Part shown: positions 7,566-58,282 of the stretch, piece after piece
Numbering within the stretch: position 1 is the stretch's first letter
Layout of the letters: each line of letters starts with the position of its first letter
Source: Mytilus galloprovincialis
Lineage: Eukaryota > Mollusca > Bivalvia > Mytilida > Mytilidae
DNA: 64,000 nucleotides
Direction: 5' to 3'
NCBI RefSeq assembly: GCF_965363235.1
Contig: NC_134839.1
Coordinates: 92,895,743 to 92,959,742 of the forward strand
The notes under the pieces: generated by a model
The model's input: the letters and a program-made list of their open reading frames with translations, nothing else
Databases searched by the model: none
Told to the model about the DNA's origin: nothing
Made by a program: the position numbers and the translations under genes

Positions 7566-8646
7566 AAAAGGCTGTCACAACGACAGCAAACCGGATTTAT
7601 TAACATTTATTTGTGTCCTGGCAATATCACAAGAACCATTACTGGTGAATGGTGAAAGTGAAAATCGTCAATATCAAATTTGACCTCCATTTTGTAGTCT
7701 GAAAAGCTTAGATTGAATGGTTCATGAGTAAATGCAACAACGTGAATGGAAACGCCATTTTACGATCTTTCAAGAACCATAACTCCTTAACGGTAAAAGT
7801 CAAAATCGTCATTATTGAACTTGACCTCTATTTTGTCATCAGTAACAACATATAAAAATTTCAAAAGCATTGGTTGAATGGTTCATGAGAAACTGCACGG
7901 ACACGACTGGAAACACCATTTTTCAATCTTTCAAGAACCATAACTCCTGAACAGTAAAAGTCAAAATCGTCATTATTGAACTTTATCTCCATTTTGTCAT
8001 CAGTAACAATATATTAAAATTTGGGAAGCTTTGATAGAACAGTAAATGCACGGACACGACTGGAAACTCCATTTTTCAATCTTTCAAGAACCATAACTCC
8101 TGAACAGTAAAAGTCAAAATCGTCATTATTGAACTTGATCTCCATTTTGTCATCAGTAACAATATGTTAAAATTTTGGAAGCTTTGGTAGAACAGTTCAT
8201 GCGTAAATGGACGGACACGACTGGAAACTCCATTTTTCAATCTTTCAAGAACCATAACTCCTGAACGGTAAAAGTCAAAATCGTCATTATTGTTCTTGAC
8301 CTCCATTTTGTCATCGGTAACAACATATTAAAATTTGGGAAGCTTTGGTAGAATAGTTCATGGGTAAATGCAAGGACACGACTGGAAACTCCATTTTTCA
8401 ACCTTTCAAGAACCATAACTCCTGAACGGTAAAAGTCAAAATTGCCATTATTGAACTTGACCTTCATTTAGTTGTCAGTAACAACATATTAAAATTTTAA
8501 AAGCTTTGGTTGAACGGTTCATGAGTTAATGCACGGACAACATTTGATTGCCCCCCGCCTGCCCGACACCCCGGCCACCCTGCCGCCCGCCGTACATCCC
8601 CAAATCAATAACCGACATTTTTGTCACAAAAATCCGGTTAATAAAG
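7566..8646. mobile_element. Element with a core array of about 161-bp tandem repeats
   Basis: The phrase 'AAGAACCATAACTCCTGAAC' or close variants begins at 7631, 7772, 7933, 8086, 8247 and 8408. Spacings are 141, 161, 153, 161 and 161 bp. The array is bracketed by inverted ends: 'AAACCGGATTTATTAAC' near 7589 on the left and 'AAAATCCGGTTAATAAAG' near 8630 on the right. Inverted ends around a core of ~160-bp repeats recall bivalve pearl/HINE-type non-autonomous elements and ~160-bp satellites. I cannot confirm identity with a named family. Open frames here on both strands are repeat artefacts. Confidence 0.7.
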
Positions 8647-12688: not shown

Positions 12689-13316
12689 GATGGATATGAC
12701 TCCTTCCTACCAGAGGGCAAGTTGGTAGGCCTAAAATCAGAGGCATTTGACTCCTTCCCACTAGAGGACAAGTTGGTAGGAAATTAAGGCCTTAAGTCAG
12801 AGGGATATAACTCCTTCCCACTAGAGGGCAAGTTGGTAGGCCTAATGTCAGAGGCCTTTGACTCCTTCCCACCAGAGGGCAAGTTGGTAGGCCTAAAGTC
12901 AGAGGGATTTAACTCCTTCCCACCAGAGGGCAAGTTTGTAGGCCTAAAGTCAGAGGGATATAACTCCTTCCCACTAGAGGGCAAGTTGGTAGGCCTAACG
13001 TCAGAGGCATTTGACTCCTTCCTACCAGAGGGCAAGTTGGTAGGCCTAAAGTCAGAGGGATTTAACTCCTTCCCACCAGACAGCAAGTTAGTAGGCCTAA
13101 AGTCAGAGGCATTTGACTCCTTCCTACCAGAGGGCAAGTTGGTAGGCCTTAAGTCAGAGGGATATGACTCCTTCCCACCAGAGGGCAAGTTGGTAGGCCG
13201 TAAGTCAGAGGGATATGACTCCTTCCCAAAAGAAGGCAAGTTGGTAGGCCTAAAGTCAGACAGTATGACTCCTTCTCACCAGACGGCAAGTTGGTAGGCC
13301 AAAGTCAGAGGGATTT
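12689..13316. repeat. 51-bp minisatellite, about 12 copies
   Basis: Unit 'GGCAAGTTGGTAGGCCTAAA' + 'GTCAGAGG' + an ATAT/CATTT variable spot + 'GACTCCTTCCCACCAGAG'. The markers 'CAAGTTGGTAGG' recur every 51 bp from about 12718 to 13289, with a 9-base insertion near 12780. Since 51 is divisible by three, both strands stay open over many units: plus 12833-13297 as LVGLKSEGFNSFPPEGK repeats, minus 12784-13239 as NLPSGGKESYPSDLRPT repeats. Decayed units continue to about 13480 and 13580. Coding use is doubtful because both strands are equally open. Confidence 0.9.
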
Positions 13317-13659
13317 GACTCTCTTTCATTAGAATGGGGCAAGTTGGCAGGTTTTATAAAATCATTGATTATTAACAGGATATACAACCCATTTTTATTA
13401 GTGATGGACAGGTCTATGATTCCTTTAAAATTCAAAAGTGGGCAAGTTGGCAAGCAGAAATTCAGTTACATTCAACTCCTTTTCATTAGTATGATTAGTA
13501 CGGTGATTTAAAAGAAAGTAAGGAGATGTTCTAGATTTGTTGGCAAGGTTGGTGAGTTGATAAAAAGTAGGCAAGTTGGTGTGTAGCTTTTTTACAGTGG
13601 ATCAAATTGTTTTGCTTTAACATCAAATACGGCAGCAGATATTTGGATTATTTAAAAAA

Positions 13660-16025: not shown

Positions 16026-16151
16026 TAAAACAAGAATGTGTCCGTAGTACACAGATGCCCCACTCATACTATCATTTTCTATGTTAAGTGGTCTGTGAAA
16101 TTGGGATAAAATCTCTAATTTGGCATTTAATTTAGAAAGGTCATATCATAG
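16026..16151 (-). repeat. R4 dispersed mussel repeat, minus orientation, first part
   Basis: 'GAATGTGTCCGTAGTACACA', 'GATGCCCCACTC', 'ATCATTTTCTATGTTAAGTG' and 'GGTCATATCATAGGGAAC' are the reverse complement of the R4 copies at 41673, 46806 and 58045. The repeat stops abruptly at 'GGGAAC' and resumes at about 16889, so 16152-16888 is inserted material. Confidence 0.8.
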
Positions 16152-16430
16152 GGAACAAATCAAATCAAATCAAATCAAATCATTTTATTGGTGTAAAATC
16201 CAAATATTGGATTGTTACCAAGACAAACATGACAATCATTACAAACATATAATATCTAAATTTAAACAACATTCATATTCTTATAAGACTATATATTCAA
16301 ATGTTTTGGAGGAGGTGATACCTTTGCAAATTTGAAAGTACAAGTACAAACAATCATATTAATGCAATTGTTATAAAATATATCATTACAAGTACTATAA
16401 GAAAATATAAAAGTCACATAATTTTTTTAC
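16152..16430 (-). mobile_element. 3' end of a short-tailed retroelement (LINE or SINE), minus orientation
   Basis: Starts with five AAATC repeats followed by 'ATTTTATTGG'. Read on the minus strand this is ...CCAATAAAAT then (GATTT)n: a poly(A)-signal-like hexamer and a pentamer microsatellite tail, the standard 3' end of many mollusc non-LTR elements. It lands inside the R4 copy at 16026. No reverse-transcriptase frame is visible, so this is a 5'-truncated copy. The left limit of its body is uncertain. Confidence 0.55.
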
Positions 16431-22866: not shown

Positions 22867-23259
22867 GTCGTAAACTTTGATATAGTTTCCAATTAGAAAC
22901 AGAACTTGAAAATGACAATTAAGCTGTCAATTGATCGTGAATAATTGAGGTCTTACCTTTCCGTATTGTAAAATATTTAAAAGCCTTATTAATCACAGGC
23001 ACTTGCCTTAGAATTTTTTCCCCTAAACACCTTCACTGGGGCAAAGCTGATGACCGTAACTGCATTCACGGTCATCCCAAGATGTCGGATGACAAATTAG
23101 GTCAGTTTCTGTATTGTCTGTTAAAGTGTTTCTATGTCATTTTCTTTACAAATCATACATTGAAACGACGTAAATTTATAAAAGAATCACTCGGAAATCA
23201 CAAGTTACTACCGAGAAATGTGCATGAAATGGGAAATTCGATTTGAAAAAAAATCGTTA

Positions 23260-23420
23260 CACTGGCGGATCTAGAAATTTTCATAAGTGGGGGCCCACTG
23301 ACTGCGCTAAGAGGGGGCCCGCTCCAGTCACGCTTCAGTGATTCCCTATATAAGCAACCAATTTTTTTCCCAAAAAGGGGGGGCCCGGGCCCCCTGGGCC
23401 CCCCTCTAAATCCGCCTCTG
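23260..23420. mobile_element. 161-bp hAT-like MITE nested in the left foldback arm
   Basis: Ends CACTGGCGGATCTAGA and the complement of CAGAGGCGGATTTAGAGG. The 5-bp direct repeat CGTTA lies on both sides (23255-23259 and 23421-23425). Internal phrases 'CCACTGACTGCG', 'GCTCCAGTCACGCTTCAGTG' and 'GGGCCCCCTGGGCCC' are shared with the copies at 32465, 32646 and 47244. The right foldback arm lacks it. Confidence 0.9.
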
Positions 23421-23819
23421 CGTTAAGATGACGTAAATCATAATCAAAATATTTTCAAGATGACCGTAACATATAACAAGGATGACCGTGATTGGTAAAA
23501 AGATGACCGTAACTTGTAAAGGATGACCGTAATTTGTAAAGGCTGACTGTAATTTATAATGGACGACCGTCAATTTTAAGAAATATCCGTACTTGTATTC
23601 AAAGCTTTTTGTTGAGTTTGTCGATCTCAATAGGGGCTCGGTAAGGGGATATTAATATGTTTCATAAATTTCTTTTTTTAAACTACTGGCTGTATTTTGG
23701 GTTTATGATAATGATAGTAAATTGCATGCCATATTTCTCGTAAACAATGAAACATTTATTGATAACGACATTAAAATTTTAATACAAATTGACAGCGATA
23801 CGACGAAAATTTGAAGAAA

Positions 23820-24130
23820 CATGAATGTGTCCCTAGTACACGGATGCCTCATCTACACTATCATTTTCTATGTTTAGTGGACCGTGAAAATGGGATAAAA
23901 CTGTAATTTGGCATTAGAATTAAAAAGATCATACCATAGGAAAAATGTGTACTAAGTTTCAAGTTAATTAAACCTGAAGCTGGACAAACGGACAAACGAA
24001 CAGACGAACGGACGAACGCACGCACAGACCAGAAAAAACATAATGTTTGTTATATTAAAATTTTGTCTTTGGCAATGAATTGCCAAAGACAAAATTTTAA
24101 TATAACATGTTCATAAATGGAGCATAAAAA
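23820..24130 (-). repeat. R4 dispersed mussel repeat, minus orientation, nested in the foldback element
   Basis: 'GTGTCCCTAGTACACGGATG', 'TGTGTACTAAGTTTCAAGTT' and the GGACAAACGAACAGACGAAC simple stretch are R4. It ends 'CATAAATGGAGCATAAAA', matching the start of the 58045 copy. It has no counterpart in the right half of the foldback element and is itself interrupted by a hairpin insertion. Confidence 0.85.
24048..24106. mobile_element. 59-bp perfect hairpin insertion inside R4
   Basis: Arms 24049-24076 and 24079-24106 are perfect 28-base reverse complements with a 2-base loop. ATGTT occurs immediately on both sides (24043-24047 and 24107-24111). Removing the hairpin and one ATGTT restores the R4 reading seen at 58045 ('CATAATG-TCATAAATGG'). 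This supports a true insertion with a 5-bp duplication. Confidence 0.85.
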
Positions 24131-27100
24131 CATTACTAATGCATATGAATATTCGGTAATCGAGCCCATGTGTATGGTTCCAGAGGAAGCAGATTAATAA
24201 AATCTTAATTTGTCTTGATATTATATGCAGGCGGAAACCCAGTTGAAATAGAACAAAAGAATCGTAGCTCTTTGTTAGAGAAGGCGATAAATGTTTACTG
24301 TAATGTTTACTATAGTATCAAAATTTTAAAAGTTATTAGAAACAAATAAAACGACAATTTTCTTCTCAATTACAAATGTTTAATTTTAAAAACACCATTT
24401 GCATAAGTTTTCAATTTATCTATTACATAGTCATGCAGAACAATAAGATATCAAGTCGATGACTTTGGTACTATAAGTTGGATGTAGAAAATGCATAACA
24501 CATCAATCTATTAGTTCAGAAATTTGCGTGTCTGCCCTTCCATTATGTGAATCAAGAAAAAATTCCCAAAAATACGTAACAATTGTATCGAAAAGAGAAA
24601 ATCGAGTGCACCTTTTTATGTTAGGGCGTGTTTGATGTGTATATGTTGTCTTTAAACTGTGACGTACAAAGCAAGAGTATTTAATATAGCATCTCGCTTC
24701 AGATTCTATAATTTTTATATATGAAAGCTACTGTACAGTTTGACTTTATAACGTAAAAAATTACAGTACGAAAAGATGAAATATATGGGTCAAGTGGACT
24801 ACCTATCTAGGCCGAGTTCACTTGAAACTCTCGAGTTAACTTTACTAAATCGAGTTTCAACAAAACGATTTAACTTGAACCACTCGAGTTAACCCCTCGT
24901 ACCCTTGTTCCAACCCTCACCGAGCCAGGGTAAAAATCGAGAAACTCTTGAATGACGTCAAACCAATGAGAATATTTTATTTTTTATGCTTGGTCAGGGC
25001 CTTACCCTAGAGTTACTTAATGAGTTGTTCCGAATATCAACCAGTCAGGAGTCTACTTCGTCAAAATTATCTCCCCATTACGCCATTTCATTTTCACAAT
25101 CGTAGAAATGGAAGCCATTGTAGGGATGACGCGCTACCAATATTGCTCTTGGAAACCGATAAATTTATCCACATTGCACCATTACGATCCTTATAAGTCA
25201 GTTGTATTTTAAAAGACAAATGTATCAACTAGCTAATGAGCATCAGTTAATAATCTTGTCTTCATTGATTCAACTTAAAACTATTGTCTGATCGGTTGTC
25301 AGGTAGAATTTTCGAAAATTCATAAACATTTAAAAAAAATTCTAATTAAATATTTCGTGGAAGGGCAGACTAGATTTTTTTAGCTTATGAAGACTATAAA
25401 CCCTAGTAATCACACACAAAAAATTAGAATTTTTCGAAGATATGCATTTTCATCATCCAACTTGAAAGACTGTCGTCAAGTACTTTCAGTAAAAAATAGC
25501 TATTCGAACACACCTTCTCTGTTTTTGTGACTCATTAGATAGGTATTTCACTTGACCCATATATTTCATCTTTTAGTACTGTGATTTTTTTGTGTTATAA
25601 AGTCAACCTATAGCTTTAATATGTAAAAATGATAGAATCTGAAGCGAGACGATGTATGAAATATTCTTATTTTGTACGATATCAAGACAAAATACTCAAC
25701 TCAAACGCGCCCTAACATAAAAAGGTGCACTCGATTTTCTCTTTTCGATACAATTGTTACCCATGTTTTGGATTTTTTTCTTCAGTCACATAATGGAAGG
25801 GCAGACACGAAAATTACTGAACTAATAGATTGATATGTTTTCCGTCCGTGGTAATTTTTTCATAAAAATCGGAGGTTATGCATTTTCTTTATCCAACTTG
25901 AAAGATACCCATGTCGTCGACTTGATATCTAATTGTTCTGCTTAACTATGTACTAGATAAATTGAAAACTTATGCAAATGGTGTTTTTAAAATAAAACAC
26001 CTCGTAATTGAGAAGAAAATTGCAATTTTGTTTGTTTCTATTTACTTTTTTAAATTTTGTCACTATAGTAAACAGTACAGTAAACATTTATCGCCTTCTC
26101 TACAAAGAGCTTCGATTCTTTTGTTCTATTTCAACCTGGTTTCCGACTGCAACTCTTGTGCGTTCACGTAAAAATCTATTACTGAACTCTGAAGTCGATT
26201 GTAGAGTTTCAAGTGAACTCGGCCCTATGAATCACAAAAACAGAGTAGGTGTATTCGAATAGCTATTTTTTTTTTTCTTCTAAAAGTACTTGACGACAGT
26301 CTTTTAATTTGGATGATGAAAATGCATATCTTCGAAAATAAATATGTTCGTGTGTGTGATAACTAGGGTTTATAATCTTCAACCACTGAAAATTTTTAGT
26401 CTGCCCTTCCACGAAATATTTAATCAGATTTTTTTTAAATGTTTAAGAATTTTCGAAAATTCCACCTGACATCCGATTAGACAATAGTTATTTTATTTGC
26501 ACGACAAAATGGAAGACGATATAATATCAATGGGTGTACATGCATTGGCATTTTTAAAAATGTGTATTTATTATACGTCATTAAAAGTCTGAATCCCAGA
26601 AATAAAAAAAAAAATCCTCTGTCTTGTAGTTGGAGTCTGTGCACCGCATTTTTTTCCCATCATACTGGTAAAGTGTCATTTTACCGCGCTTTTGTTGCAT
26701 GGTTTCCCTACTTGTTCATGTGCATGCTTTGTTGCAAATTCATTTTAAAAATTCAACCCTCTACTGTAAAAAAGATACATATGGTGAACTACGAATTTGA
26801 AGCACGTCTTAGTTGCTTCTTCTTCTTATAGGATAATACTCTCATATTAATACGTTTATACCAACACGATTAACTTCATTGGATACAAAAAGGTAGTTAT
26901 ATAAATACGGATATTTCTTAGAAATGACGATCAACTTTTAAAAGTTACGGTCATCATTTACAAATTACGGTCATCTTAAAACCAATTACGGTCACCCTTG
27001 TTATGAATCGCTGATTCTGTTACGGTCATCTCGATTGTGATTTACGGTCTTCTGAGCGATTTTTTCAAATCGAAATTCCTGTTTTATGCATATTTGTCGG

Positions 27101-27336
27101 TAGTAATTGGTGATTTCCGTGTTAATCTTTTATAAATTTACATCGTTGAAATGTATGATTTGTAAATAAATGATATAGAAACACTTTAACAGACAATACA
27201 GATACTGACCTAATTTTTCATCCGACATCTTGGGATGTCCGTGAATGCAGTTACGGTCATCAGCTTTGCCCCAGTGACCTTCATTTTATACAATGTTTAT
27301 ATTAAGGTATATATATGGAAGTGCCTGTGTTATTAA

Positions 27337-27571
27337 GGGACGACATCAAAAGTTCAATGAAGGATAAAAAACTTAATTCAAATAGTTTTTTCACTGACCC
27401 CCCTACCCCCCTATTAACTTAATTTGGGAAAAATTGATTGACCCATATGGATATATGTAAAAATCAATGTCGGATAACAAAATCTTGCAGCAGTTCACAC
27501 CACCCACCCCCACCCCCAAACTATTTGAATTAAGTTTTTTTTATCTTACATTGATCTTTTGATGTCGTCCC
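27337..27571. mobile_element. 235-bp PIF/Harbinger-like MITE, TSD TAA
   Basis: Both ends read GGGACGACATCAAAAG inward and continue as inverted repeats for about 50 bases ('AACTTAATTCAAATAGTTT' on each side). TAA lies at both boundaries (27334-27336 and 27572-27574). A 3-bp TAA/TTA duplication with G-rich ends fits Harbinger. The centre has C-rich runs and 'TTGATTGACCCATATGG'. Confidence 0.85.
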
Positions 27572-27574
27572 TAA

Positions 27575-28987
27575 TGTGACTGTTTTAAAGATAATAAACA
27601 TTTATAGTATGATTCAATGTTATCAATGTTGCCCTAGAAGGGGAGATGACTCAAAAACCTTACTTTCAAAAGGAATGTGTAGGGGAACATTACATATTTT
27701 GTTTTGTTTCAGGCAAACAAGTTCCGTGACCTCCATTATTTTATGAATACACATTTCAAAAATTAACTGTTATATTCAGTTTTATCAGACAAAGAGTTTG
27801 CAGCCGTATAATGGCAAGGGACGGTGCTATATGACATGGTGGGTGCATATTAAAATGTGTATCGGGACATTAATGATATGGTAAGATATTGTAAGAAGTT
27901 GCACATAACTGGTATATCATCCTCGTGCCTGGTGCAGAGGAGTCAGTACTATTTAAAGTGACACAACTGCAAGAGACACCAAGCTAATTGACATGCCAAA
28001 GTGTGACATATTACGAAAAAAATAAATATTACCAGTTTAATAAAAAAAATATATCACAAACAGAAAGGTAATAGAACTTATACGATGTGGTCCTGTACCC
28101 TACCATGCCTATCTCTTGTCTTGTGCAGAAAGCCTGATTTAAATATTTATCTTTCAAGTTATATTTTGTCTTATGATTAACTAACTCACAGACATCAGAT
28201 ATCAAGATTCTCTACATTAAGAAGCCATCTCACGTTTTTTTGGCTTTTTGGAATCAAATGCGTACAGTTTGGGCATAACGAGTTAATAGTGGGATTTAAA
28301 CAATTTCTCTTATCTTGAGATGATGTACACGAAAATAGAAAAAATGTTTTTCATCATCAACTTGATTTGAGGTGCACCTGAGACATATTCTGTCTCTTCG
28401 GGGAGTACCCTGATAGCGACCTTGTTCGATTCTCAGTCTGTGAGAAGAAATACGCACTCGAGTGAAATTCCTCCTCTGCTCAGGTGATTGTAATAAAGTA
28501 AAATATCTTTTCTATAAAGAATTATGAAAGGCTATAAAACATTTTTTCTTGAATTATAATACAAAATTAAATTGAATACAAGTCAACTGTCATTACTATA
28601 AAATACATTTTCGCTTTATTAAAATTTCATACCAGATCTAGGCATTATAAAATATCATATTTTAATTTGTGAAAGAAATACAAATTTTTCATTATCAGAT
28701 ATTAGTAAAAAAAAAATCATTAACAATACTAACATGGTTAAAAGTAACTGTATCTGAATATACAGGACAGTTTAAAAAATCTTCAACGTCATCAGTACAG
28801 TATAACATAAATCTATTTTCAATATCGATATTTGCAAAACGAACAGTTTCAATTCTAATGGGTGCTACAACACATCTCAACTTGGCTAAAAGTTAAAACA
28901 CTCCAGTATCTATCTGGTATATTAGAAATCAAATAATTTTCTACATCATATACATTTTTGAACATTCTATATGTGCGTCGTTTATTT
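27575..28987. other. Unassigned AT-rich DNA
   Basis: No supported gene. 'CTGGTGCAGAGGAGTCAGTA' and 'CACAACTGCAAGAGACACCA' (27935-27990) may be dispersed repeat. Open frames on both strands at 28669-28896 are mutual shadows without family resemblance. Confidence 0.35.
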
Positions 28988-32508: not shown

Positions 32509-32639
32509 GGGAGGGCACTGACTGCCTTGGCCTTTGGGGGGTCCTCTCCAGTCATGCTTCAGTGATTCCTAAATAAACAACCAAATTTTTCCAAGAAAAG
32601 AGTAGCCCTGGCCTCCAAAAAAAATCCTTAAATCCGCTG
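32465..32639. mobile_element. Left-truncated hAT-like MITE with a 31-G run
   Basis: Shares 'GGCACTGACTGCC', 'CTCCAGTCATGCTTCAGTGA' and 'AACAACCAAATTTTTCC' with the MITE at 23260, and ends in a partial terminal repeat (AAATCCGCTG). The left terminal repeat is missing; similarity starts at 'GAAATTATAAGG'. The G tract spans 32477-32507. Confidence 0.75.
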
Positions 32640-32645
32640 GGTGAT

Positions 32646-32812
32646 CAGTGGCGGCTCAAGAACTTTTCCTAAAAGGGGGGGGGGGGGGGCGCTGACTGAC
32701 CTAGGGGACTGCTCCAGTCATGCTTCAGTGATCCCCTATATAATCAACCAAATGTTTCCAACAAAAGGGGCGTGGCTGGCCCCCAGTGCCCCACCCCCTG
32801 GATCCCCCTATG
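32646..32812. mobile_element. 167-bp hAT-like MITE, adjacent second copy
   Basis: Begins CAGTGGCGGCTCAAGAA and ends with an eroded complement (GGATCCCCCTATG). Flanks GTGAT and GTGAC differ by one base from a perfect 5-bp duplication. It carries the family core 'GCTCCAGTCATGCTTCAGTG' and a G15 run near 32676-32690. Confidence 0.8.
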
Positions 32813-37619: not shown

Positions 37620-38720
37620 CCAGGATCCTCTCCTCATAAACTGGATCCACCACATACACCAAACCACTGCCATCCAAAGCAATAACTCACCAAACACCAA
37701 ATCACTCTCCACAAGCAATTAGTACCACCATACTTCAAACCACTACCGTCCAAAGCAATACCCACAACATACACAAAACCAGTACCATCGAAAGCAATAC
37801 CTACCACATTAAGCAAAACTCTGTCACCACATACACCAAAAATCAGCCATCCAAAGCAATAGCCACGATATGCATCAAAACTCTGCCATCAAAAGCAATA
37901 CCTACCACATTATGACATACAGCAAAACTCTGCCACCATATACACCAAAAACATGAAAAATCAGCCATCATAGGCATACCCCCCACATACACCAAAACTG
38001 TGCCATCCAAAACAATACCCACCACATACACCAAAACTCTGCCATCCAAAGCAATACCCACCACATACACTAAAACTCTGCTATTCAAAGCAATACCCAC
38101 CACATACACCAAAACTCTGCCATCCAAAGCAATATTCACCACATACATGTATGTACACCAAACTGCAACCATCATAAGCAATAACAACCACCTCCACCTA
38201 ATGAAAAGCACCATAAGCAATACCAACCACTTACAACAAACCACTGACAGTCAAAGCAATATTCACCATATACATTTGTACACCAAACCACAACCATCAT
38301 AAGTAATTCCAACCAAATACACCAAACCACTACGGGGCACTACCATTAAAAAGCAATAGTAACCACATACACCCATCCACTGTCATCTAAAGCAATACCA
38401 TCACATACACCAAACCACTACCATCATAAGCAATAACAACCACATACACCAAATCACTACCATTAAAAAGCAATAGTAACCACATACACCCATCCACTGT
38501 CATCTAAAGCAATACCATCACATACACCAAACCACTACCATTCAAAGCAATAACAACCACATACACCAAACCACTACCATTAAAAAGCAATAGTAACCAC
38601 ATACACCCATCCACTGTCATCTAAAGCAATACCATCACATACACCAAACCACAACCATTCAAAGCAATATTCACTGCATACAACAAACCACAACCATCTT
38701 AAGCAATACCCACCATAAAC
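37620..38720. repeat. 39-bp minisatellite with 117-bp higher-order units
   Basis: Basic unit 'CCATCCAAAGCAATACCCAC' + 'CACATACACCAAAACTCTG' (39 bp, reading PSKAIPTTYTKTL on plus). From about 38341 the array changes to a trimer: 'TACCATTAAAAAGCAATAG' recurs at 38341, 38458 and 38575, exactly 117 bp apart. Both strands are open because of the 39-bp period, so the 100- and 133-residue frames here are not evidence of a gene. Confidence 0.9.
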
Positions 38721-39180
38721 ATCAAACCCCTATTCCATGCAAAACACCTTCCACCACATAATAGAATCATAATGTCCATAATGAAAATTTGAAATCTACA
38801 CTGAGCACATACAATAAACCAATTTTATCTTAATCAAAACAAAAAAATATACAAATTAAATCATTACCATCTTGAACAAAACAAATATACACATTAAACC
38901 TTTACTACATCATACATGTATCTAAAAAAAAACAAAGATATACACATTCAACCATTACCATCTAAAGCTCACCATCTACACCAATTTATAACTTTTTGAA
39001 GCAAAACACCACTTTTGCAAATTAGTGACCATCTGAAGCAAAGTTCACCAATTTGGTCAATTAGTGACCATCTGAAGCATAGATCATCACTTCAGCCAAT
39101 TATTGACCATCTGAAGTAAAGCACACAACATATGCCAACCAACCAAAGGAAAATGATCATATAAGCGAAGCTGATATAGC
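38721..39180. repeat. Decayed continuation of the minisatellite
   Basis: 'AGTGACCATCTGAAGCAAAG' recurs with ~40-bp spacing between 39025 and 39120, and CACATACA/ACCATC words continue before it. This looks like the older edge of the same array. Confidence 0.6.
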
Positions 39181-41672: not shown

Positions 41673-42165
41673 TATGCCCCACCTACGATAGTAGAGGGGC
41701 ATTATGTTTTCTGGTCTGTGCGTCCGTTCGTTCGTTCGTCCGTCCGTCTGTTCGTTCGTTCGTTCGTCTGTTCGTTCGTCCGTCTGTCCCGCTTCAGGTT
41801 AAAGTTTTTGGTCAAGGTAGTTTTTGATGAAGTTGAAGTCCAATCAACTTGAAACTTAGTACACATGTTCCTTATGATATGATCTTTCTAATTTTAAAGC
41901 CAAATTAAACTTTTGACCCCAATTTCACGGTCCACTGAACATAGAAAATGAAAGTGCATGTTTCAGGTTAAAGTTTTTGGTCAAGGTAGTTTTTGATGAA
42001 GTTGAAGTCCAATCAACTTGAAACTTAGTACAAATGTTCCCTATGATATTATCTTTCTAATTTTAATGCCTAATTATATTTTTTATCCAATTTCACAGTC
42101 CATTGAACATGGAAAATGATAGTGGGAGTGGGGCATCCGTGTACTTTGGACACATTCTTGTTCTA
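41673..42165 (+). repeat. R4 dispersed mussel repeat, plus, internally duplicated
   Basis: Starts 'TATGCCCCACCTACGATAGT', then a CGTTCGTTCGTC simple stretch. It then has two copies of the block 'CAGGTTAAAGTTTTTGGTCA'...'CTAATTTTAA' (about 41796 and 41964, ~168 bp apart). Ends 'GTGGGGCATCCGTGTAC'...'CACATTCTTGTT'. Confidence 0.9.
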
Positions 42166-46805: not shown

Positions 46806-47085
46806 CCCACGCCTAAGCTACGATAGTAGAGGGGCGTTATGTTTCTGGTCTGTGGGTCCGTCCCTTTATTTGTCCGTTTGTCCCTCTGTGCCGCTTCAGG
46901 TTAAAGTTTTTGGTAAAGTTAGTTTTTGATGAAGTTGAACTCCAATCAACTTGAAACTTAGTACAAATGTTCCCTATGATATGATCTTTCTAATTTTAAT
47001 GCCAAATTCCAATTTCACTGTCTAATGAACGTAGAAAATAATAGTGCTGAGTGGGGCATCCATGTACTATGGACCTATTCTTGTT
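46806..47085 (+). repeat. R4 dispersed mussel repeat, plus
   Basis: 'CTACGATAGTAGAGGGGCGT', 'CAGGTTAAAGTTTTTGGTAA', 'CAATCAACTTGAAACTTAGT' and 'GTGGGGCATCCATGTACTAT' in the canonical order. A single, non-duplicated internal block, unlike the copy at 41673. Confidence 0.9.
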
Positions 47086-47243: not shown

Positions 47244-47383
47244 CAGTGGCGTATCCAGAATTTTTCTTAAGTGGGGGTTCACTGACTGCCTGCTCCAGTC
47301 ATGCTCCAGTGATTCCTATATAATCAACCAAATTTTTCTCATGAAGGGAGCCAGGGCCCTCTGCCCCCCAAAATCTGCATTTG
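47244..47383. mobile_element. 140-bp hAT-like MITE
   Basis: CAGTGGCGTATCCAGAATTT at the left and an eroded AAATCTGCATTTG at the right, with ATGAC duplicated exactly (47239-47243 and 47384-47388). Core 'TGCTCCAGTGATTCCTATAT' is the same family as at 23260 and 32646. Its right end and TSD are copied again 41 bp downstream (near 47412). Confidence 0.85.
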
Positions 47384-56633: not shown

Positions 56634-57456
56634 GTCCTTAGACTGGGTAGGAATGTTTAGACTGAACAGTGCACAATGACTTCTTGGATCATGTTATCCT
56701 TAGACTTGGTAGGAATGTTTAGACTGAACAGTGCACAATGACTTCTTGGATCATGTTATCCTTAGACTTGGTAGGAATGATTAGATTGAACAGTGCACAA
56801 TGACTTCTTGGATCATGTTATCCTTAGACTTGGTAGGAATGTTTAGACTGAACTGAGTGCACAATGACTTCTTGGATCATGTTATCCTTAGACTGGGTAG
56901 GAATGTTTAGACTGAACAGTGCACAATGACTTCTTGGATCATGTTATCCTTAGACTGGGTAGGAATGTTTAGACTGAACAGTGCACAATGTCTTCATGGA
57001 TCATGTTATCCTTAGACTGGGTAGGAATGTTTAGACTGAACAGTGCACAATGACTTCTTGGATCATGTTATCCTTAGACTTGGTAGGAATGATTAGATTG
57101 AACAGTGCACAATGACTTCTTGGATCATGTTATCCTTAGACTTGGTAGGAATGTTTAGACTGAACTGAGTGCACAATGACTTCTTGGATCATGTTATCCT
57201 TAGACTTGGTAGGAATGTTTAGACTGAACTGAGTGCACAATGACTTCTTGGATCATGTTATCCTTAGACTGGGTAGGAATGTTTAGACTGAACTGAGTGC
57301 ACAATGACTTCTTGGATCATGTTATCCTTAGACTGGGTAGGAATGTTTAGACTGAACAGTGCACAATGTCTTCATGGATCATGTTATCCTTAGACTGGGT
57401 AGGGATGTTTAGACTGAACTGAGTGCACAATGACTTCTTGGATCATGTTATCCTGC
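56634..57456. repeat. 62/64-bp minisatellite, 13 copies
   Basis: Units marked by 'GACTKGGTAGGAATGTTTAG' start at 56641, 56703, 56765, 56827, 56891, 56953, 57015, 57077, 57139, 57203, 57267, 57331 and 57393. The 64-bp form has AACTGAGTGCAC for AACAGTGCAC. Variants such as 'GATTAGATTG' (units 3 and 8) and 'TGTCTTCATGG' (units 6 and 12) recur in blocks, showing segmental amplification of several units at a time. Confidence 0.95.
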
Positions 57457-58044: not shown

Positions 58045-58282
58045 GTGCCCCATTTATGAGCATTATGTTTTCTGGTCTGTGCATCCATCTGTACGTTTGT
58101 TCGTCCATCCATCCGTCTGGTTAAAGTTTTTGGTTTCAGTTAGTTTTTGATGAATTAAAGGTCCAATCAACTTCCCTATGATATGATCTTTCCAATTTTA
58201 ATGTCAAATTAGAGATTTGACCTAATTTTCATGGTCAACTGAACATAGAAAATATCTGTGTACTTGGCACACATTCTTGTTT
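58045..58282 (+). repeat. R4 dispersed mussel repeat, plus, diverged
   Basis: 'GTGCCCCATTTATGAGCATT', 'GGTTAAAGTTTTTGGTTTCA' and 'CTATGATATGATCTTTCCAA', ending 'CACACATTCTTGTTT'. Its 'CATTTATGAG' start matches the copy at 23820-24130, so the two form a subfamily distinct from the CTACGATAG form. Confidence 0.85.

Follow-up and report, generated by a model that had tools for sequence, protein, structure and literature searches.

A foldback-like structure in the genome of Mytilus galloprovincialis as a nest of non-autonomous DNA transposons

Results

Layout of the locus

The window, the whole stretch of 64,000 nucleotides of Mytilus galloprovincialis DNA that was analyzed (G000:C2:92895743-92959742), carries a series of inverted repeats enclosed within one another. 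The features referred to below are as follows, with TSD standing for target-site duplication and TIR for terminal inverted repeat.

22994..27329, no strand: small host repeat, present as 22994-23033 and 27282-27329 (88 bp without its insert), tips CACAGGCACTT/AAGTGCCTGTG
23034..27276, no strand: outer non-autonomous TIR transposon, tips CACTGGGG/CCCCAGTG, TSD ACCTT at 23029-23033 / 27277-27281
23034..23747, + strand: left TIR and subterminal part with ~20-bp GATGACCGTAA repeats, interrupted by 23260-23425
23260..23420, + strand: 161-bp insert, CACTGGCGGAT...CCGCCTCTG, TSD CGTTA at 23255-23259 / 23421-23425
23748..24047, + strand: repeat ending in a microsatellite-like stretch, whole or partial in 17 of 19 outer copies
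24048..24107, no strand: near-perfect 60-bp palindrome, 29-bp arms and 2-bp loop, TGTT before and after
24228..24809, - strand: first part (A) of the old copy of element E, tip CAGGCGGAAACC at 24228, preceded by TATG, the fossil TSD of the family
24810..26224, no strand: insertion I, ~300 bp without E (24810-25041 and 26154-26224), exact 22-bp TIR GGCCGAGTTCACTTGAAACTCT, TSD CTA at 24807-24809 / 26225-26227
25042..26149, + strand: young copy of E, 1108 bp, CAGTCAGG...CCGACTG, TSD CAAC at 25038-25041 / 26150-26153, empty site in the sister copy L059
26227..26489, - strand: second part (C') of old E; the final ~237 bp (X) and the next ~135-145 bp are lost here and kept in other copies
26885..27276, - strand: right TIR and subterminal ~20-bp repeats
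27337..27571, no strand: 235-bp inverted-repeat MITE, GGGACGACATC...GATGTCGTCCC, TSD TAA at 27334-27336 / 27572-27574, inside the right TSD of the host repeat

Self-BLASTN paired the two outer TIRs at 23033-23251 / 27060-27277 (91%, E-value 4e-83) and again at 23473-23559 / 26918-27004 (83%, E-value 4e-19). Inside them, 24226-24809 paired with 25536-26151 (81% over 627 aligned columns, E-value 7e-175) and 25279-25535 with 26227-26489 (86%, E-value 1e-83), and a short inverted pair was present at 24810-24842 / 26192-26224. The three nested inverted-repeat pairs described by an earlier, sequence-only reading therefore exist close to where it placed them, far beyond chance (E-value 4e-83 or below for each of the three main pairs). 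Tandem arrays elsewhere in the window, at 56635-57454, 7700-8539, 12692-13321 and 37825-38726, have periods of ~62, 161, 51 and 39-78 bp.

The outer element and its family

The genome (1.385 Gb) was searched with 22984-23500, giving 67 matching pieces in the best 40 of 4,351 candidates. At the 39 listed places besides the window, matches start at query base 25 (one place) or 41-51 (the rest), so that the limits of 22984 and 27336 first proposed for the structure were too wide. Homology among the copies stops at 23034 and 27276, which are the ends of the outer element itself, and the tips at 22994 and 27329 were accordingly rejected as ends of the outer family. Hits fall on contigs C1 to C14, a number that fits n = 14 in Mytilus. 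Both tips were found in 19 of the 20 regions of 7-8.7 kb fetched for outer family copies, 1.85-7.4 kb apart, and a single tip in the remaining one. Genome-wide, the exact 30-base outer tip occurs 748 times (375 forward and 373 reverse), against none in either direction for the reversed-pattern control. The first 100 of these listed tips include 39 neighboring inward-facing pairs within 20 kb of each other (median 3,141 bp) and five neighbors in other orientations; some pairs among the listed tips lie 5.6-13.7 kb apart, for example on C1 near 37.48, 64.26 and 73.91 Mb. One inward-facing pair, at G000:C1:16872621-16872903, lies only 283 bp apart and may represent a strongly shortened derivative of the family.

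A TSD was found in 17 of 20 outer copies (the 19 two-tip copies and the window), nine of 5 bp and eight of 6 bp, with none in the other three. Among 380 mismatched flank pairs used as a control, none matched at 5 bp and two matched at 6 bp. The sequence-only reading had named shared tips with a flanking duplication of fixed length as the proof of a mobile family: the duplication is there, but in two lengths. Such a mixture (nine versus eight of 17; L039-L058 and the window) is, in our view, unusual for one family. With its inverted tips, TSDs and many dispersed copies, the outer unit has the properties of a TIR DNA transposon. The family is mobile, its long TIRs are foldback-like, and the copies read contain no transposase.

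The same earlier reading had looked to an autonomous relative, with a transposase between the same arms, for classification. None was found among the 21 outer copies read, and this holds for a hAT transposase as well. A coding capacity of these copies was rejected: the longest frames in the 21 copies were of 100-148 aa, with no open reading frame above 148 aa, and several of them run along the 20-bp repeats. No frame above 121 aa lies inside the element in the two longest copies read, L048 (6.7 kb) and L049 (7.4 kb). A Pfam scan of four open reading frames gave no match; two of these are wholly inside outer copies (window 26481-26828 and L049 7573-7935), one runs across the window's left end of the element and one lies outside L049's copy.

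The host repeat and smaller layers

The 11-bp pairing of the tips at 22994 and 27329 lies outside the outer element. Judged from the window alone, it may tentatively be assigned to an 88-bp inverted repeat that the outer element entered. The TSD of this host repeat, TTATTAAT, stands at 22986-22993 and at 27330-27336, continued at 27575 after the interrupting repeat, and the 8-bp duplication is perfect once the 235-bp TAA-flanked MITE is removed from the right copy. PIF/Harbinger MITEs have a 3-bp TWA TSD, and TAA stands on both sides of this MITE, read in one copy only; by its TSD and tip we take it to be Harbinger-like.

At the site of the 161-bp insert, outer-family matches break near query base 276 and resume near 438 at adjoining bases, and the insert is missing from the five copies examined at the site (L040, L041, L042, L046 and L058). 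It belongs to a repeat that starts with CACTGGCGGAT and has a C-rich core, with relatives in the window at 32537-32616, 32646-32792 and 47244-47369 (72-80%). The repeat at 23748-24047, presumably pearl/Helentron-like, has relatives of its 23817-23969 part in the window at 16028-16155, 41842-42162, 46944-47085 and 58172-58253. The 60-bp palindrome is missing from the eight outer copies examined at its site and from L059, and had no match in the other fetched loci except those overlapping the same place. Neither a second copy of the 88-bp host repeat nor another copy of the palindrome or of the 27337-27571 MITE was seen in the fetched DNA and the window.

Element E, in young and old copies

The second and third inverted-repeat pairs are one pair, formed by a 1.1-kb repeat, E, that is present twice, once in each orientation. 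What had been read as a related third pair is the rest of the second, cut off from it by insertion I: the pair appears as two because I, with its TSD CTA, sits in old E and young E in turn sits inside I.

That E is an element in its own right could be seen from its free copies. When the genome was searched with 24800-25290 (best 40 of 2,105 candidates scored, window included), the 39 other listed places matched only from ~25032-25042 rightward, at 97-99%. All seven free E loci that were compared in detail have a ~1.1-kb unit ending near 26150, with no other outer sequence alongside. E has the inverted tips (CAGTC) and constant TSD of a TIR transposon, the 4-bp duplication being read in 20 of 30 loci, window included (three partial and seven without, the latter seven among 27 full-length loci).

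In the outer copies, the homologue of the arms delimited by the sequence-only reading runs through A, C' and X reversed, which is E in reverse, with inserts or gaps of their own in some copies. Old E is kept beyond a remnant in 18 of the 19 two-tip outer copies, and in 12 copies both of its ends are readable, with CATA on both sides in nine and a one-base difference in three. Because of this near-general presence and the CATA duplications, it is most likely that E entered an ancestor of the outer elements, which from then on were copied with E inside them. The converse, that the E-like part was native to the outer family and gave birth to free E, accounts for the 18 of 19 outer copies that carry E and for the fact that no outer copy free of old E, and hence no pre-insertion state, was seen among those read. 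It is nevertheless highly unlikely, given both E tips with CATA on both sides in nine of the 12 readable outer copies and the 4-bp TSDs that free E also has.

The E alignment comprised five old E from outer elements, A and C' of the window joined, 26 free E and the window's 25042-26149. The five old E were those of the 21 outer regions (L039-L058 and L059) with one match over 900 bases, a limit passed by 26 of 29 free E loci. Mean differences were 2.4% within young E, 6.7% within old E and 11% between them. The tree separated an old clade of six tips (support 1.0), including A and C' of the window, from a young clade of 27 tips (0.93), including the window's uninterrupted E.

Insertion I

A search with the left part of I (best 40 of 138 first-look candidates scored) gave 42 pieces at 88-100%. 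A 3-bp TSD was found in five of ten independent loci, with none in four and one locus truncated, and CTA stands on both sides in the window. The exact 22-bp TIR and these TSDs give moderate support to I being a TIR transposon (MITE). The target of I in old E is the place that reads ATTAGATAGG in uninterrupted young E. The three junctions near 24808, 25536 and 26222, which had been taken as marks of repeated inversion or template switching, meet at the same short sequence because two of them are the ends of I and the third is the intact I target in young E.

A sister copy without young E

A further outer copy, L059 (G000:C3:39613400-39617400), measures 2,722 bp; its TSD is ATAAG, and its flanks are unrelated to those of the window. 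Of 20 outer copies it is the one most similar to the window, at 95.2% over 2,070 aligned bases (92.9% for the runner-up), and a tree built from 14 right halves places the two as sisters (0.9). I stands at the same base in L059 as in the window. Young E, the 161-bp insert and the palindrome are all missing from L059, as are parts of A and of 23748-24047, and X is kept. L059 reads CGAATATCAACTCTTGTGCG, the exact empty site of the window's CGAATATCAAC-E-CAACTCTTGTGCG, with one CAAC. Since L059 shares I at the same base and is without young E, old E and I were already part of the outer element when it moved, and young E came later.

Discussion

The whole structure is almost certainly a nest of non-autonomous DNA transposons built by ordered insertions. 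The insertion boundaries and their TSDs were read directly from the DNA, as were the position of I shared with L059 and the empty sites of the 161-bp insert and young E. According to the order that these suggest, E would first have inserted into an ancestor of the outer family with the TSD CATA (TATG on the + strand of the window) and then been carried as a passenger. Insertion I then entered old E in one outer lineage, with the TSD CTA, and the composite transposed as a unit; at least two copies are left, the window's and L059 on contig C3, which differ in flanks and TSDs. In the window copy, young E later inserted into I, opposite to old E, with the TSD CAAC; this copy also gained the 161-bp insert and the 60-bp palindrome and lost ~380 bp. 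The inner inverted repeats are these opposed E copies, divided by I into two apparent pairs. Each element presumably moved by cut-and-paste, with a transposase supplied from an unseen autonomous relative; both the transposases and this chemistry are assumed here.

No inversion or template switch is needed. The sequence-only reading had explained the structure as one foldback element that repeated inversion, or template switching in a hairpin, had rearranged. This interpretation drew on the inverted-repeat pairs and the coinciding junction sequences, and tandem subterminal repeats are indeed found in the long TIRs of the outer family. However, the two inner arms fall into different clades of an independent repeat, ~11% apart, which means that one did not arise here as a copy of the other. 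TSDs mark the inner junctions as insertion boundaries, and other copies show the empty sites of the 161-bp insert and, exactly, of young E; position 25536, the supposed junction, lies in the middle of an E that is not interrupted there. For the inner pairs, hairpin rearrangement is refuted by the empty site in L059 together with the separation of the E copies into two clades, and it is very improbable for the structure as a whole. A local palindromic duplication that is not mobile has nothing in its favor beyond the inverted repeats themselves and may be dismissed, given that the outer element, E and I are dispersed in the genome with TSDs of their own and that relatives of the 161-bp insert and of the 23748-24047 repeat occur at other places in the window.

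The nest of insertions may be compared with known systems through its outer family. The hAT5 and hAT6 groups of hAT have 5-bp and 6-bp TSDs, respectively, in the consulted part of PMC12730594, and hAT is among the richest superfamilies in bivalves, as stated in the part of PMC10294476 consulted. The outer family, with terminal inverted repeats and a TSD of 5 or 6 bp, resembles these groups in TSD length and is a candidate member of them, with no transposase in the copies that were read; unlike them, it gives both lengths about equally within one family (nine and eight of 17). Foldback elements, Tetris and Tm1 among them, have mostly been placed in Mutator, with TSDs of 8-10 bp for Tetris (PMC4079207, in part), and Tm1 has a 9-bp TSD, one Tm1 copy also holding a nested inverted-repeat element (PMC3169594, in part). 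In its architecture, with tandem repeats in long TIRs that enclose a variable non-coding middle, the outer family is like the Tetris and Tm1 foldbacks; in contrast to the 8-10 bp of Mutator-type foldbacks, its TSDs are of 5-6 bp, which argues against Mutator. According to the same consulted part of PMC12730594, elements of the CMCT clade, to which Transib belongs, mostly end in CA..TG and have TSDs of 2-5 bp. The outer family shares CAC...GTG ends with this clade and, in part of its copies, a 5-bp TSD. Transib itself has the tip motif CACWRTG and a 5-bp TSD, and it was rejected for the outer family, whose tip CACTGGG misfits this motif and whose TSDs are of 6 bp in eight of 17 copies. No title or abstract start in the search listings pointed to the outer family, and the consulted parts of PMC3517528 and PMC6004678 contain nothing on 5-bp TSDs. 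Bivalve MITEs make up a considerable proportion of their host genomes and were left unclassified in the consulted part of PMC10294476; the elements of the window are likewise small non-autonomous DNA elements, so that, with MITEs this abundant in bivalve genomes, a nest of such elements is unsurprising.

It is conceivable, and in our judgment rather unlikely, that an undescribed transposase lineage moves the outer family, producing 5- and 6-bp TSDs about equally, with foldback TIRs independent of Mutator, and that it has repeatedly spread passengers (old E, then I). The window structure itself consists of real repeats and a mobile outer family, but it is an ordinary nest of insertions. Our results illustrate that related repeats nested in opposite orientation can mimic foldback rearrangement. 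The order of events was obtained with observed empty sites, and a composite of three element families was found to have moved as one unit. For repeat annotation, the analysis keeps apart at least three families (the outer element, E and I) that might otherwise be joined in a single false element.
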